Below are positions 12,876 to 60,606 of a DNA stretch of 64,000 bases, in pieces. Position numbers and translations under genes: made by a program. The stretch lies in the NCBI RefSeq assembly GCF_002355595.1, contig NZ_AP017422.1, positions 1,984,001 to 2,048,000 on the forward strand. The letters are read 5' to 3'. The notes beneath the pieces were generated by a model, which was not told where the DNA came from, searched no databases, and saw only the letters and a list, made by a program, of their open reading frames with translations. How positions within the stretch are numbered: the first letter of the stretch is position 1; every line of letters starts with the position of its first letter. Source of the stretch: Filimonas lacunae. Lineage in GTDB: Bacteria; Bacteroidota; Bacteroidia; Chitinophagales; Chitinophagaceae.

Positions 12876-13931
12876 TTAATAGCCAAATGAAATGCCTTTT
12901 AACTGCATGGTGCCATCGGTTACTACTTCATCGCCCGCCTGCACACCGCCGTAGATGATTACCCGGTCGTTGATTTGTGTGCCGGATAATACTTCTTTAC
13001 GGGTGAAGGTGGTAGCGTTTGTTTTTACAAACACATAGTTTTTACCCTGCACGGTAATTAGTGCGCTTTTAGGTACTGACAGGTTGTTGCCTTCACTTAC
13101 ACCAAAGGATACAGAAGCAAACATGCCTGCACGCAGCTGGTTGTTGAGGTTAGGTAAACCTATACGCAGTTTTACCATGCGGGTGATATTGTCTACCACT
13201 TCGCCTACACTTTCAATTGTGCCGGTAAAAGTTTGATTGGGGTAGGAGGTAAAGTGCAGCTGACAGGTGCTGCTGGTTTTAATATTGTTTACCTGGCTTT
13301 CGGGAATGTCGCATATCACCCATACCTTATCGGCACTGGCGTGTATTAGCGATTCGGGATTAAAGCCTGCCAGTTTTAAACGGGTTTCGTGTTCTATCAC
13401 CGCTGTTTTTTCGTTAGCCAGATCGTTTTGTGCAATGGCTATATCTGTTTGCGCACCTATTAAATCGGTTTTGGCATCTGATACATCTTTACCGGTTCCT
13501 GCACCATGATTGGCCAGATCGGTAAAGCGGTCTACTTCAATCTGCTTTTGTGTAGCGATGGATTTTTTCTGTTGTATGATGCTGCCTTTTTCGCGAATGC
13601 TGATAATGTGCTGTAACAGGGAAGTATAGTTGGCTGTTAATTCGGGATTTTCGAACAGTACTAAATTTTGCGATGGGTTTTCGCTGGAGTGCACTACGGT
13701 GGCGGCCACGCGGGCAGGCGCATTCAGTTGGGCGCTCATGCTGGTAGAGCCTATTTTTTCGGTGCCGAAAAAATGCAGGGTGGTGCTGTCGGGCGGAAAC
13801 TGTACGGTGCGCCCGCTGTCTGTTACCTGTACTTTAGCAGCAGCCGGTTGTTTGGCCGTTTCGTGTGAGCCGCAGGAGAACAGTGTTGCAGAAGCGCCGG
13901 TTAGTAATACATATGTAACTATTCTTTTCAT
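12876..13931 (-). CDS. RND periplasmic adaptor lipoprotein (CzcB/CusB type)
   Basis: A 351-residue membrane-fusion protein with a lipoprotein signal (MKRIVTYVLLTGASATLF, then SCGSH, lipid Cys20). It has the adaptor layout: a short N-terminal beta part, a coiled hairpin with GKDVSDAKTDLIGAQTDIAI, a barrel domain with SASVSFG-like strands (AGMFASVSF) and a membrane-proximal tail. It links the inner-membrane pump to the TolC-type channel. It starts 10 bp after the channel gene and precedes the DUF190 gene, all in one operon. Confidence 0.9.
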   Translation of the reverse strand: MKRIVTYVLLTGASATLFSCGSHETAKQPAAAKVQVTDSGRTVQFPPDSTTLHFFGTEKIGSTSMSAQLNAPARVAATVVHSSENPSQNLVLFENPELTANYTSLLQHIISIREKGSIIQQKKSIATQKQIEVDRFTDLANHGAGTGKDVSDAKTDLIGAQTDIAIAQNDLANEKTAVIEHETRLKLAGFNPESLIHASADKVWVICDIPESQVNNIKTSSTCQLHFTSYPNQTFTGTIESVGEVVDNITRMVKLRIGLPNLNNQLRAGMFASVSFGVSEGNNLSVPKSALITVQGKNYVFVKTNATTFTRKEVLSGTQINDRVIIYGGVQAGDEVVTDGTMQLKGISFGY

Positions 13932-58718: not shown

Positions 58719-59825
58719 TTAAACAGCTGGTAAAGGTGGTGGAACGTTGTTGAATAAGGCTGCCAGTTCGGGAATAGTATTGGCAGGTGCCCAGCTGGCC
58801 ATGCCTTTTTTCCAGAACTGTGTTTGCTGGTTAACAGTACCTGCTGCTATCAGTTGGTTTAATTGTTCCATGGTATATGGGCCTGCCTGCTGGCCATTGA
58901 TGGCGGCAAAAAATGGTACAGCCTGTGGAATAGGAGGCGGACCATCATTACCCTGAAACTGGTTTTGCTGGAATACATTGCCTAACTGCCCACCTATAGC
59001 CATACCTACACCTGCGCCCAGTCCCGCACCGGCTAAACCACCACCGTTAGGGTTGGTAGCTGCCTGCTCCATGGCATTGGCTGCCTGAAACTGTGCATAA
59101 GCACCCAGGTTACCTACAATGCCCATGCTGCTGCGTTTATCCAATGCAGCTTCTACCTCAGGAGGTAAAGAAATGTTTTCAATTAAAAACTTGGTTAACT
59201 CAAGCCCCAGCTCGGTAAACTCAGGTTTTATTTTATCGGTAATCAGTGCAGATACTTCATCGTAATTCGCGGCCAGGTCCAGCACCGGAATTTTAGCTTG
59301 TGCAATAGCATCTATGCCACGGGTAATGGCCAGGTTGCGTAATTGCTCGTTAATGCCATCTACCGAAAATTCAGGGTTGGTGGCTGCAATCTCTTTTAAA
59401 AAGATTTCGGCGCTTTGCACACGAAAAGCAAAAGAGCCAAATGCACGCAAACGTACCGGGCCAAACTCTGCATCGCGCAGCATTACCGGATTGCGGGTGC
59501 CCCATTTCTGGTTGGTAAACTGCCGGGTGCTTACAAAAAACACATCCGCTTTGTAGGGACTATCAAAACCATATTTCCATCCTTTCAGCGTAGAAAGAAT
59601 AGGCAGGTTTTGGGTGGTAAGCGTGTACATGCCGGGTTTAAAAACATCTGCAATCACCCCTTCGTTCATAAATACAGCCAGCTGCGATTCGCGCACAGTA
59701 AGCTTTGCATTCATTTTAATTTCATTCTGGTAGCGCGGAAACTTCCATACGATAGTGTCGTTGGTGTTATCCACCCACTCAATAATGTCAATAAACTCGT
59801 TCCTGATTTTGTCAAAAAGTCCCAT
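58719..59825 (-). CDS. SPFH-domain (virion-core-like) protein with GYF_2 tail
   Basis: A 368-residue protein. The N-terminal SPFH/band-7-like domain (about 30-240) has ESQLAVFMNEGVIADVFKPG and LRAFGSFAFRVQSAEIF and ends with LPPEVEAALDKRSSMG. A Gly-rich linker (GAGLGAGVGMAIGGQLGNVF) follows. The C-terminal GYF_2-type module (about 310-355) has NGQQAGPYTMEQLNQLIAAG and QTQFWKKGMASW, a peptide-binding fold. This combination matches YdjI/virion-core-like proteins. It pairs with the zinc-ribbon membrane protein downstream. Confidence 0.85.
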   Translation of the reverse strand: MGLFDKIRNEFIDIIEWVDNTNDTIVWKFPRYQNEIKMNAKLTVRESQLAVFMNEGVIADVFKPGMYTLTTQNLPILSTLKGWKYGFDSPYKADVFFVSTRQFTNQKWGTRNPVMLRDAEFGPVRLRAFGSFAFRVQSAEIFLKEIAATNPEFSVDGINEQLRNLAITRGIDAIAQAKIPVLDLAANYDEVSALITDKIKPEFTELGLELTKFLIENISLPPEVEAALDKRSSMGIVGNLGAYAQFQAANAMEQAATNPNGGGLAGAGLGAGVGMAIGGQLGNVFQQNQFQGNDGPPPIPQAVPFFAAINGQQAGPYTMEQLNQLIAAGTVNQQTQFWKKGMASWAPANTIPELAALFNNVPPPLPAV

Positions 59826-59954
59826 ATATCAGTTTTTATAAGAAGATGAAATTAGAATAAAGAGCAGAATTAATGATTACCGGCTATATAAAAAGTGTGT
59901 TTGTCTATTGTTAATAATGGAAGTAAAAGTGGGGCTTATCAGGAGGAAAACAAG

Positions 59955-60311
59955 ACTTACGGAAAAAATATTCGTGCTGACGGAGTTTCCGTTGGGGCTG
60001 ACGGAAAAAGCGGAGGGGCAAACGGAACCCTTGCATGGCCATACGGAAAAAGTATTTGAACAAACAGGATGTAAGTACGGCAGAGCAGCACTTCTGTTTG
60101 ACCATACAGGTATCCCGTTTGGGCAAACAGAAGACTGGTTTTTGTATACGGAAAAAATGTTCTTGCAAACGGAGTCTTTGTTTGATCAAACCGAAGTGCT
60201 GTATATACATACCGGGCCACCGTTTGATCTGACGGAAATTCCGTAAGGCCATGCAAGGGTTCCGTCTGATCAGACAGGCATTCCGTCAGCACGAATATTT
60301 TTTCCGTAAGT
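59955..60311. repeat. phase-locked 21-nt repeat array with inverted ends
   Basis: ACGGA-type cores (AC followed by GG, AG or CC) recur exactly every 21 nt on the plus strand at 59959, 59980, 60001, 60022, 60043, 60064, 60106, 60127, 60148, 60169, 60190, 60211 and 60232; only the unit at 60085 is degenerate. After 60240 the cores are inverted (TCCGT at 60240, 60261, 60282, 60303), still 21 nt apart. A 30-bp perfect inverted repeat joins the ends (59955-59984 with 60282-60311), and a 24-bp one with a mismatch lies inside (60023-60046 with 60241-60264). Open frames on both strands read as heptads of (L/Q/H)TExxxx (for example LTEKIFVLTEFPLGLTEK). Function unknown. Confidence 0.85.
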
Positions 60312-60481
60312 GCAAGTGGCGTGTAAAAAAGTAACAACCGATGGATGGTATGAAGTGCTTTTGTTTCCGTTAGAGTGGTAAATATTATGGGCAGATATGA
60401 AACAATTGCGGTAGATACAAAAGCTAAGATGGTAATATCTGCAGTAAAAAAGGGAATGCACCAGGAACAGGCGGAAAAGAA

Positions 60482-60518
60482 AAACGGACAAAAGAGTAAT
60501 ACTACTTTTTGTCCGTTT
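60482..60518 (-). terminator. intrinsic terminator of the tRNA-Leu gene
   Basis: On the minus strand, AAACGGACAAAAAG and its complement form a long stem (60482-60518) followed by a T-rich run. It lies just downstream of tRNA-Leu. Confidence 0.75.
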
Positions 60519-60520
60519 AG

Positions 60521-60606
60521 TGCGGTGGAACAGATTCGAACTGTCACGCCCGGTAAAAGGCGCTACCACCTCAAGGTAGTGCGTCTACCAATTTCGCCAC
60601 CACCGC
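60521..60606 (-). tRNA. tRNA-Leu (anticodon GAG)
   Basis: The minus strand folds as a class II tRNA: a 7-bp acceptor stem (GCGGTGG with CCACCGC), D-arm with TGGTAGACGC, an anticodon stem-loop CTACC-TTGAGGT-GGTAG giving anticodon GAG, a long variable arm typical of Leu, and a T-arm with GTTCGAATC. The discriminator base is A; no CCA is encoded. Confidence 0.95.

Follow-up and report, generated by a model that had tools for sequence, protein, structure and literature searches.

Organization of the 21-nt repeat array

The window, i.e., the whole 64,000-nt stretch of Filimonas lacunae DNA that was analyzed, contained a solo array element of about 17 to 18 units of 21 nt at 59955–60311 (no strand assigned), as delimited by its register, its pattern score, and its sibling copies L009 to L012. 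Its neighbors, both lying outside the element, were a gene for an SPFH/Band 7 plus GYF_2 protein (58719–59825, minus strand; Pfam) and a tRNA-Leu (gag) gene (60520–60606, minus strand; Rfam/tRNA search). The orientation of this tRNA gene relative to the neighboring histidine kinase gene was inverted in F. zeae (L166), and two genes left of the window array were missing from the corresponding place in F. zeae.

Eighteen units held a single 21-nt register across 59949–60326, in agreement with the exact 21-nt spacing claimed in the preliminary description. Each array unit was composed of a 12-bp dyad GTnnG-NN-CnnAC (consensus GTTTG-NN-CAAAC; conserved form GTnnGnnCnnAC) plus a 9-nt GGAnnTTCC-like linker; the linker consensus GGAnnTTCC was also palindromic, as were, roughly, most of the units. 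The word of the window array was GTTTGnnCAAAC, an orphan without a linked gene in its own genome. When the units of five elements sharing this word (see below) were pooled, positions 0, 1, 4, 7, 10, and 11 of the dyad were occupied by G, T, G, C, A, and C, respectively, in 74 to 81 of the 89 units. The four-unit pattern score reached 19 to 22 out of 24 inside the array and 15 to 18 in three edge windows of the array, and it stayed at or below 15 elsewhere in the 64 kb. Even in the best stretch of the array, units matched each other at just 54% for lag 21 and 60% for lag 42. The array was missing from the Tandem Repeats Finder output, and Rfam at the gathering score returned only tRNA in the window, with no match to the array.

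The element was bounded by a perfect 30-bp inverted repeat, composed of a left arm ACTTACGGAAAAAATATTCGTGCTGACGGA at 59955–59984 (plus strand) and its perfect complement at 60282–60311 (minus strand), and it contained near-perfect inner inverted pairs as well, e.g., the arms 60019–60048 (plus strand) and 60239–60268 (minus strand) with 93% identity; both the terminal and the inner repeats had been described beforehand. Two further details of that description needed adjustment: (i) of the 13 units among 14 credited with an ACGG-type core, all 13 fitted AC[ACG]G, but strict ACGG was present in 8 alone; and (ii) the four units said to lie in the opposite orientation did keep the same register, but they were better read as displaying the other half of the dyad, most units being roughly palindromic. 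Within the window family, the dyad pairs 3/8, 5/6, and 2/9 were complementary above expectation (P = 0.0014, 0.0036, and 0.041, respectively; 5000 shuffles), the pairs 0/11, 1/10, and 4/7 were complementary no more often than constant composition gives, and pairs across the linker axis were complementary more rarely than expected. Pair 5/6 was the adjacent central pair and thus could not be formed by a hairpin.

Reading frames across the array

Heptad ORFs were present on both strands, as noted beforehand: a 112-aa ORF of TExxxxx heptads was found in the ORF list at 59908–60246 (plus strand), and a 196-aa ORF ran through the array at 59957–60547 (minus strand). Because 21 is a multiple of 3 (seven codons), a frame open in one unit recurs in the others by itself, and both ORFs were judged to be by-products of the 21-nt period. 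These two open frames are what speaks for the array being a repeat-protein gene of TExxxxx heptads, one of the options raised in the preliminary description, and we consider that option highly improbable: the plus-strand ORF stopped at 60246, short of the array end, and matched no Pfam family (the minus-strand ORF gave a sub-threshold match only), the closest sibling L009 had an in-frame stop in the plus-strand heptad frame, and the words of other arrays were unrelated. The codon substitution pattern pointed the same way, since the window element and L009 aligned ungapped over 378 nt with 67 differences (85% identity in the BLAST match), which, read in the plus-strand heptad frame, fell 18/27/22 on the three codon positions, without an excess at the third. 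The reading of loci of this type as heptad-protein genes is thereby corrected. Coding heptads are nevertheless able to mimic a 21-nt period, of which the stretch 13374–13520 of the window, lying within a 351-aa ORF (21-nt self-match 0.50) and likely encoding a heptad-patterned protein, serves as a reminder.

Copies in the F. lacunae genome and possible signs of mobility

The F. lacunae genome (one contig, 7.81 Mb) harbored five solo elements with word and ends in common, located in the window, at 1480135, 1610248, and 2846439, and at about 4874716. The end core GGAAAAAATATTCG was present with at most one substitution at nine of the ten element ends, being absent from the left end of L012, and the end profile R2, with 150 of 4303 candidates scored, gave the same five elements strong scores, except for a weak one at the left end of the element at about 4874716. 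The 100-nt flanks of the five elements had no mutual match beyond chance-level words; L009 and L010 did show a weak 71% match, starting 76 nt to the left of each array.

The five copies in unlike flanks bear out one part of the earlier suggestion of a mobile element, but convincing target-site duplications were not seen: direct repeats of at least 5 nt were found at the ends of none of the five elements (4-nt direct repeats were seen at the window element, CAAG with one base off, and at L012, and the other elements had none), and no transposase was linked to the window word family. The third Filimonas genome (G001) and F. zeae differed in local gene content, and neither offered a clean site empty of the window element. 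A REP/MITE-like non-autonomous element, in which the array would be mobilized by the linked gene described below or by another protein, would account for the 85% identity of the window element and L009 amid unlike flanks, for the terminal repeats marking a boundary, and for the solo copies of gene-linked arrays. We nonetheless regard this explanation as unlikely, given the absence of direct repeats of 5 nt or more, the lack of a meaningful-score match of the linked protein to a transposase or HUH family, and a solo slot shared by two species with differing words (L009/L051, see below). Array DNA had no match in the phage and plasmid collections, and a pattern search of viral contigs gave 69 pattern matches, none of them related.

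A separate 2.08-kb duplication, 99.5% identical and comprising gene, array, and upstream ORF, was observed between L108 and L109 (G000:C1:1245952–1248033 and 1036929–1039010, respectively); its borders had unlike flanks, and inverted ends or duplications were not noticed there by eye.

Two words of gene-linked arrays were also followed through the genomes. The L111 word recurred at six further places in the genome, of which L219 was a remnant of about four units and L220 was degenerate. The L119 word had one further match in F. lacunae, at 753574, which was periodic, and in F. zeae it was present at the gene-linked L134 and at three other places (matches, not read in register). The solo L051 and the gene-linked L052 of F. 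zeae likewise had a common word. For the words examined, the number of solo arrays per genome ranged from 1 to 6. A 1.65-kb insertion sequence (L214:2223–3870), which from its two-ORF layout was taken to be IS3-like and whose larger ORF contained an integrase core (rve), had five genome copies (100% identity as tabulated) and none in F. zeae. All five copies (L214, L215, L216, L217, and L220) lay inside 21/42-nt arrays of the L111 word, with array on both sides in four copies and, in L214, on a single side together with a partial unit; four of the five were flanked by direct repeats of 3 to 4 nt (CAC, CAG, CCAT, and CAG).

Arrays in related genomes

The search of related genomes with the four-unit profile R1 was positive in 6 of the 294 family genomes, namely F. 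lacunae itself, F. zeae, and four genomes of one other genus; G001 gave no match. Since R1 was tuned to the window word, arrays with other words were missed by it, and indeed G215 and G045 were R1-negative yet had arrays beside their 210-aa-type genes. Weak R1 matches at L059 and L062 represented something else or no clear array. At L059:2900–3120 (G198), near a contig end, a separate tandem repeat of about 21 nt (GTAGGATCGAACC...) with a low R1 score was observed.

Arrays of the Filimonas/Chitinophagaceae relatives kept the 21-nt pitch but displayed different palindromes: GTTAGTGCTTAC in F. zeae (CGMCC 1.15290) and GTTCAnnTGAAC, GTAAGnnCTTAC, and GTATGnnCATAC in the one other genus. The F. 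zeae array L051 occupied the same intergenic slot as L009 with a different word; one side of this slot was formed by the gene of a long uncharacterized protein that matched across both genomes, and the other by a gene that we take to encode inorganic pyrophosphatase. Absence from all relatives, which the preliminary description had named, together with a lack of transcription, as a mark of probable neutral expansion, was thus not observed: arrays were present in relatives, and one F. zeae array shared a slot with an F. lacunae element.

Linkage of arrays to a multicopy gene family

A multicopy, unnamed gene family encoding proteins of about 210 aa had 17 copies in F. lacunae and 18 in F. zeae, and none was found in G001. 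Thirty-five Filimonas copies (17 plus 17 loci plus L052; L109, a near-duplicate of L108, was counted) were scored for a 21/42/63-nt self-match of at least 0.48 over 126 nt within 1 kb on either side of the gene: an array signal was present upstream in 28 of the 35 copies and downstream in none. Applied to the rest of the window in 62 one-kb segments, the same test gave a background of one hit, which scored 0.50 in the 351-aa ORF, so the 0.48 threshold was not above every background value; 25 of the 35 copies exceeded 0.50, the highest background value, and L107, L110, and L129 had an upstream self-match at threshold. The seven copies below threshold were of two kinds: (i) L113, with an array 1.8 to 2.0 kb upstream of the gene, L114, where about 2 kb upstream the period was 22/43/44 nt, and L112, where a 43-nt period was seen within 0.5 kb; and (ii) L103, L104, L123, and L132, with no clear array upstream. 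Counting by best lag alone gave 31/35 upstream and 5/35 downstream; since a multiple of 21 was likewise the preferred lag of 29 of 126 window segments, this control was judged weak and amplitude took its place.

In other genomes, mostly of other genera and families, an array (self-match 0.5 over 105 nt) was found upstream at 26 of 37 loci and downstream at 3, including a strong downstream array (0.90) at L180, with 1 of 40 background segments passing. These 37 loci were those of the 40 not already read as L063 to L098 that remained after L177 and L193 (F. zeae, already counted) and L197 were left out; 19 of them had been examined for periodicity beforehand, L185 represented the same place as L086, L196 offered just 162 nt upstream, and the downstream stretches of L182 and L192 were not usable.

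The gene family was present in 7 of 395 phylum genomes and in 21 of 294 family genomes, and all six R1-positive genomes fell within these 21 (hypergeometric probability 6e-8, the six genomes representing two genera and hence not being independent). At the 16 distinct gene loci of F. lacunae, R1 had no match, and neither the whole window nor the other solo loci examined contained a copy or relic of the gene; the connection of the window array to the gene is therefore one of kind and not of direct linkage. Words differed among gene copies, and arrays tended to have their own words. Taken together, the arrays upstream of most gene-family copies point to an undescribed array-plus-gene system.

Several further features accompanied the genes. 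A leader motif like TTTTCCGCGTCCACACTGCGTTTGAGC was found at 16 of 34 Filimonas loci, in 14 of these 205 to 246 nt before the gene start (matches with at most 7 substitutions in 27 positions, not controlled by shuffling); it could be a promoter or a leader RNA. A DUF5675-like ORF followed 11 of the 35 copies (L104, L112, L113, L114, L120, L123, L125, L126, L127, L129, and L052), with Pfam confirming the assignment in L052, L104, and L125, and eight of these 11 copies were also accompanied by an 80- to 85-aa ORF resembling a small membrane protein.

The linked protein had no convincing match when 36 members were compared with Pfam, NCBIfam, PHROGs, and PADLOC and, by sequence, with PDB chains: the best E values were 0.00051, 0.014, 0.0022, 0.0043, and 0.0055, respectively, and the best matches in the first four libraries each involved one or two of the 36 members, those of PADLOC being scattered and weak with the best in 1/36. 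Among the 25 families listed, of 27 in Pfam-A matched by the 36 members at E ≤ 1, there was no Y1 (IS200/IS605-like, PF01797) and no Nop family, nor was a Rep, ParB, or ParR family among the Pfam families listed. The structure model placed helices in residues 11 to 104 and a seven-strand beta domain from residue 121, and most of its Foldseek partners were fibronectin type III domains (best E 5e-4). Because the model had a mean pLDDT of 55.8 and was built from three sequences, the Fn3-like half alone was used, and the predicted architecture of a helical half plus an Fn3-like half is held with low confidence. The protein was weakly basic, with a mean net charge of +1.9 in the N half and +0.6 in the C half. 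The L174 protein had no homologue in the phage or plasmid collections, and the L056 protein had no match in the plasmid collection.

Palindromic words and their relation to the proteins

Dyad symmetry was significant (P ≤ 0.05, column shuffles) in 43 of 66 arrays and not in the other 23; the 66 arrays, L109 included, came from 73 loci given, of which 32 outside the L103–L136 and window sets had been preselected for periodicity. A 5-2-5 dyad was displayed by 33 of 47 arrays, whereas 200 column shuffles gave 13.5 on average and 20 at most (54 loci given, 14 preselected for periodicity; L109 left out). The most frequent base had a mean share of 0.81 in the word, 0.65 in the linker, and 0.64 at the 2-nt center; the word-linker contrast of 0.156 exceeded the shuffle maximum of 0.105, and the word-center contrast of 0.168 lay within the shuffle range (maximum 0.191). 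Within-unit covariation was absent, central pair included, when 43 arrays were pooled (32 loci preselected for periodicity included; L109 left out), so the symmetry resides in the word shared by the units of each array, and the pair result of the window family is not general. Upstream of L105, at about 1722–1965, the 21-nt period was that of A/T tracts alternating with mixed segments; no dyad was significant there, and the array represents phased A-tracts.

The linkers, although less conserved than the words on average (0.65 vs 0.81), differed in behavior between arrays: they varied in L116, L118, and L119, and whole 21/42-nt units were near-identical (≥0.9) in L111, L117, L127, L133, and L052. 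Arrays of the former kind are what would be expected of a TIGR-like guide or structured-RNA array, in which the 12-nt words would be repeats and the 9-nt linkers spacers, the transcript being cut into small RNAs; the arithmetic of 12 + 9 = 21 and the frequent 42-nt alternation resemble the TIGR arrays described in PMC12045711, and G-T mismatches slightly exceeded A-C mismatches in the gene sense (108 vs 83 in 19 arrays; L109 left out). Arrays of the latter kind leave no distinct spacers, the dyad pair beside the 2-nt center was as symmetric as the outer pairs (with axes picked on symmetry), a feature not required for hairpins, and the Nop family was missing among the families listed for the 36 members, all of which makes this explanation improbable.

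Protein and word were compared in 27 arrays, L109 being left out. The partner's word ranked first or second of 16 in five of six reciprocal best protein pairs: it ranked first for L118/L136, L116/L133, L111/L127, and L117/L135 and second for L106/L121, with the remaining pair L105/L052 at rank 13. The word-sharing pairs had 41 to 79% protein identity; L116 and L133, for example, shared the word GTGAGnnCTCAC at 45%. Over all pairs the correlation was weak (Spearman 0.127, reached by 67 of 2000 permutations), and L127 and L131 had unlike words despite 75% protein identity.

The near-perfect 42-nt blocks of some arrays suggest recent tandem duplication, and together with the missing pooled covariation they fit a neutral satellite produced by slippage and unequal crossing-over, for which the gene linkage would be historical. 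We judge such an origin quite unlikely: the 21-nt pitch was found in several families of the phylum, the dyad word was conserved above the linker, words were common to five of six reciprocal best pairs at 41 to 79% protein identity, and the arrays of the Filimonas copies were confined to the upstream side.

Proposed function

The reading that we favor, tentatively and at somewhat less than an even chance, is that the window array is a non-coding double-stranded DNA platform for a dimeric protein and a solo member of a wider array-plus-gene system of Bacteroidota. It is preferred on the basis of the constant two-turn pitch, the 5-2-5 dyads, the constrained word, and the freer linker. The 12-bp dyad sites, each with 5-bp half-sites and a 2-bp center, would recur every 21 bp, i.e., two helix turns, which would place all sites on one face of the helix and make side-by-side loading of dimers possible. 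A dimeric protein would read the word as double-stranded DNA, a linked array would regulate its adjoining gene, and solo arrays would act in trans as targets or non-autonomous copies. The protein-binding scaffold mentioned in the preliminary description is thus plausible in its geometry, with binding itself deduced from the layout. The reader is possibly the product of the linked gene; against this assignment stand its lack of a known DNA-binding family, its weak charge, and the orphan status of the window word.

A more specific and doubtful version is a one-gene-one-word system, in which each paralogue would read its own palindromic word, in the array next to the gene as well as in solo arrays, with protein and word changing together; the differing words at the slot common to F. 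zeae and F. lacunae would be a trace of such change. Protein and word also change together at PRDM9 hotspots and centromeric satellites. If true, as many as about 18 nucleoprotein platforms, orthogonal to one another, would coexist in one bacterial chromosome. If the linkage has the meaning that it suggests, phase-locked DNA arrays in several Bacteroidota would belong with a patchy, multicopy gene family that has no name in the libraries searched; the many gene-array pairs per genome would then form a natural test set for changing DNA (or RNA) specificity, with the phased scaffold usable in synthetic biology.

Comparison with known systems

The literature searched (titles and abstract starts, mostly without subscription papers and preprints) contained no description of arrays phased at 21 bp next to a gene of this kind, and the array-plus-gene system is provisionally taken as new to the literature; the earlier statement that no named feature type fits holds within what was searched. 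So does the statement that the array is not CRISPR: a regular array of short repeats is common to both, but the window type had 21-nt units throughout and no long spacers, and no cas gene stood out by eye among the ORFs listed for the fetched loci. In plasmid iterons and partition-site arrays, too, sites for a protein follow one another at a distance of about two helix turns, close to the gene that encodes this protein. The present system differed from them in having 17 to 18 gene copies per Filimonas genome, differing words, solo arrays, and no Rep, ParB, or ParR among the families listed.

TIGR-Tas was nearest in arithmetic and REP-RAYT was the closest analogue in layout, and for each a defining feature was looked for and not found. 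According to PMC12045711, TIGR arrays have 8- to 12-nt repeats with 9-nt spacers, and the repeat sequence varies between loci. The arrays described here similarly had short alternating repeats at 9-nt spacing beside a gene, with a repeat that differed by locus; unlike TIGR arrays, they displayed dyad words, units of 21/42 rather than 36 nt, and, in some cases, identical linkers, the Nop domain was not found among the families listed, and the protein tested had no homologue in the phage or plasmid collections.

REP/RAYT systems, according to PMC2817692, comprise dispersed intergenic palindromes, a linked gene that lies next to repeats of its type, and further copies standing alone, with more than 100 REP copies per genome according to the REP abstract. 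The differences were as follows: (i) the present arrays were long and had 21-bp helical phasing; (ii) they lay upstream only (28/35 vs 0/35 in the Filimonas copies), whereas a RAYT gene is flanked on both sides; (iii) the linked protein was predicted to be helical plus Fn3-like, with Y1/HUH not among the families listed; and (iv) solo arrays numbered 1 to 6 per genome for the words examined, far below 100. The likenesses were the dispersed intergenic palindromic repeats, the gene beside its own type, and the solo copies of the L111 and L119 words, to which is added that insertion sequences targeting REPs are known (PMC1525189), a likeness to the insertion seen in the L111-word family.
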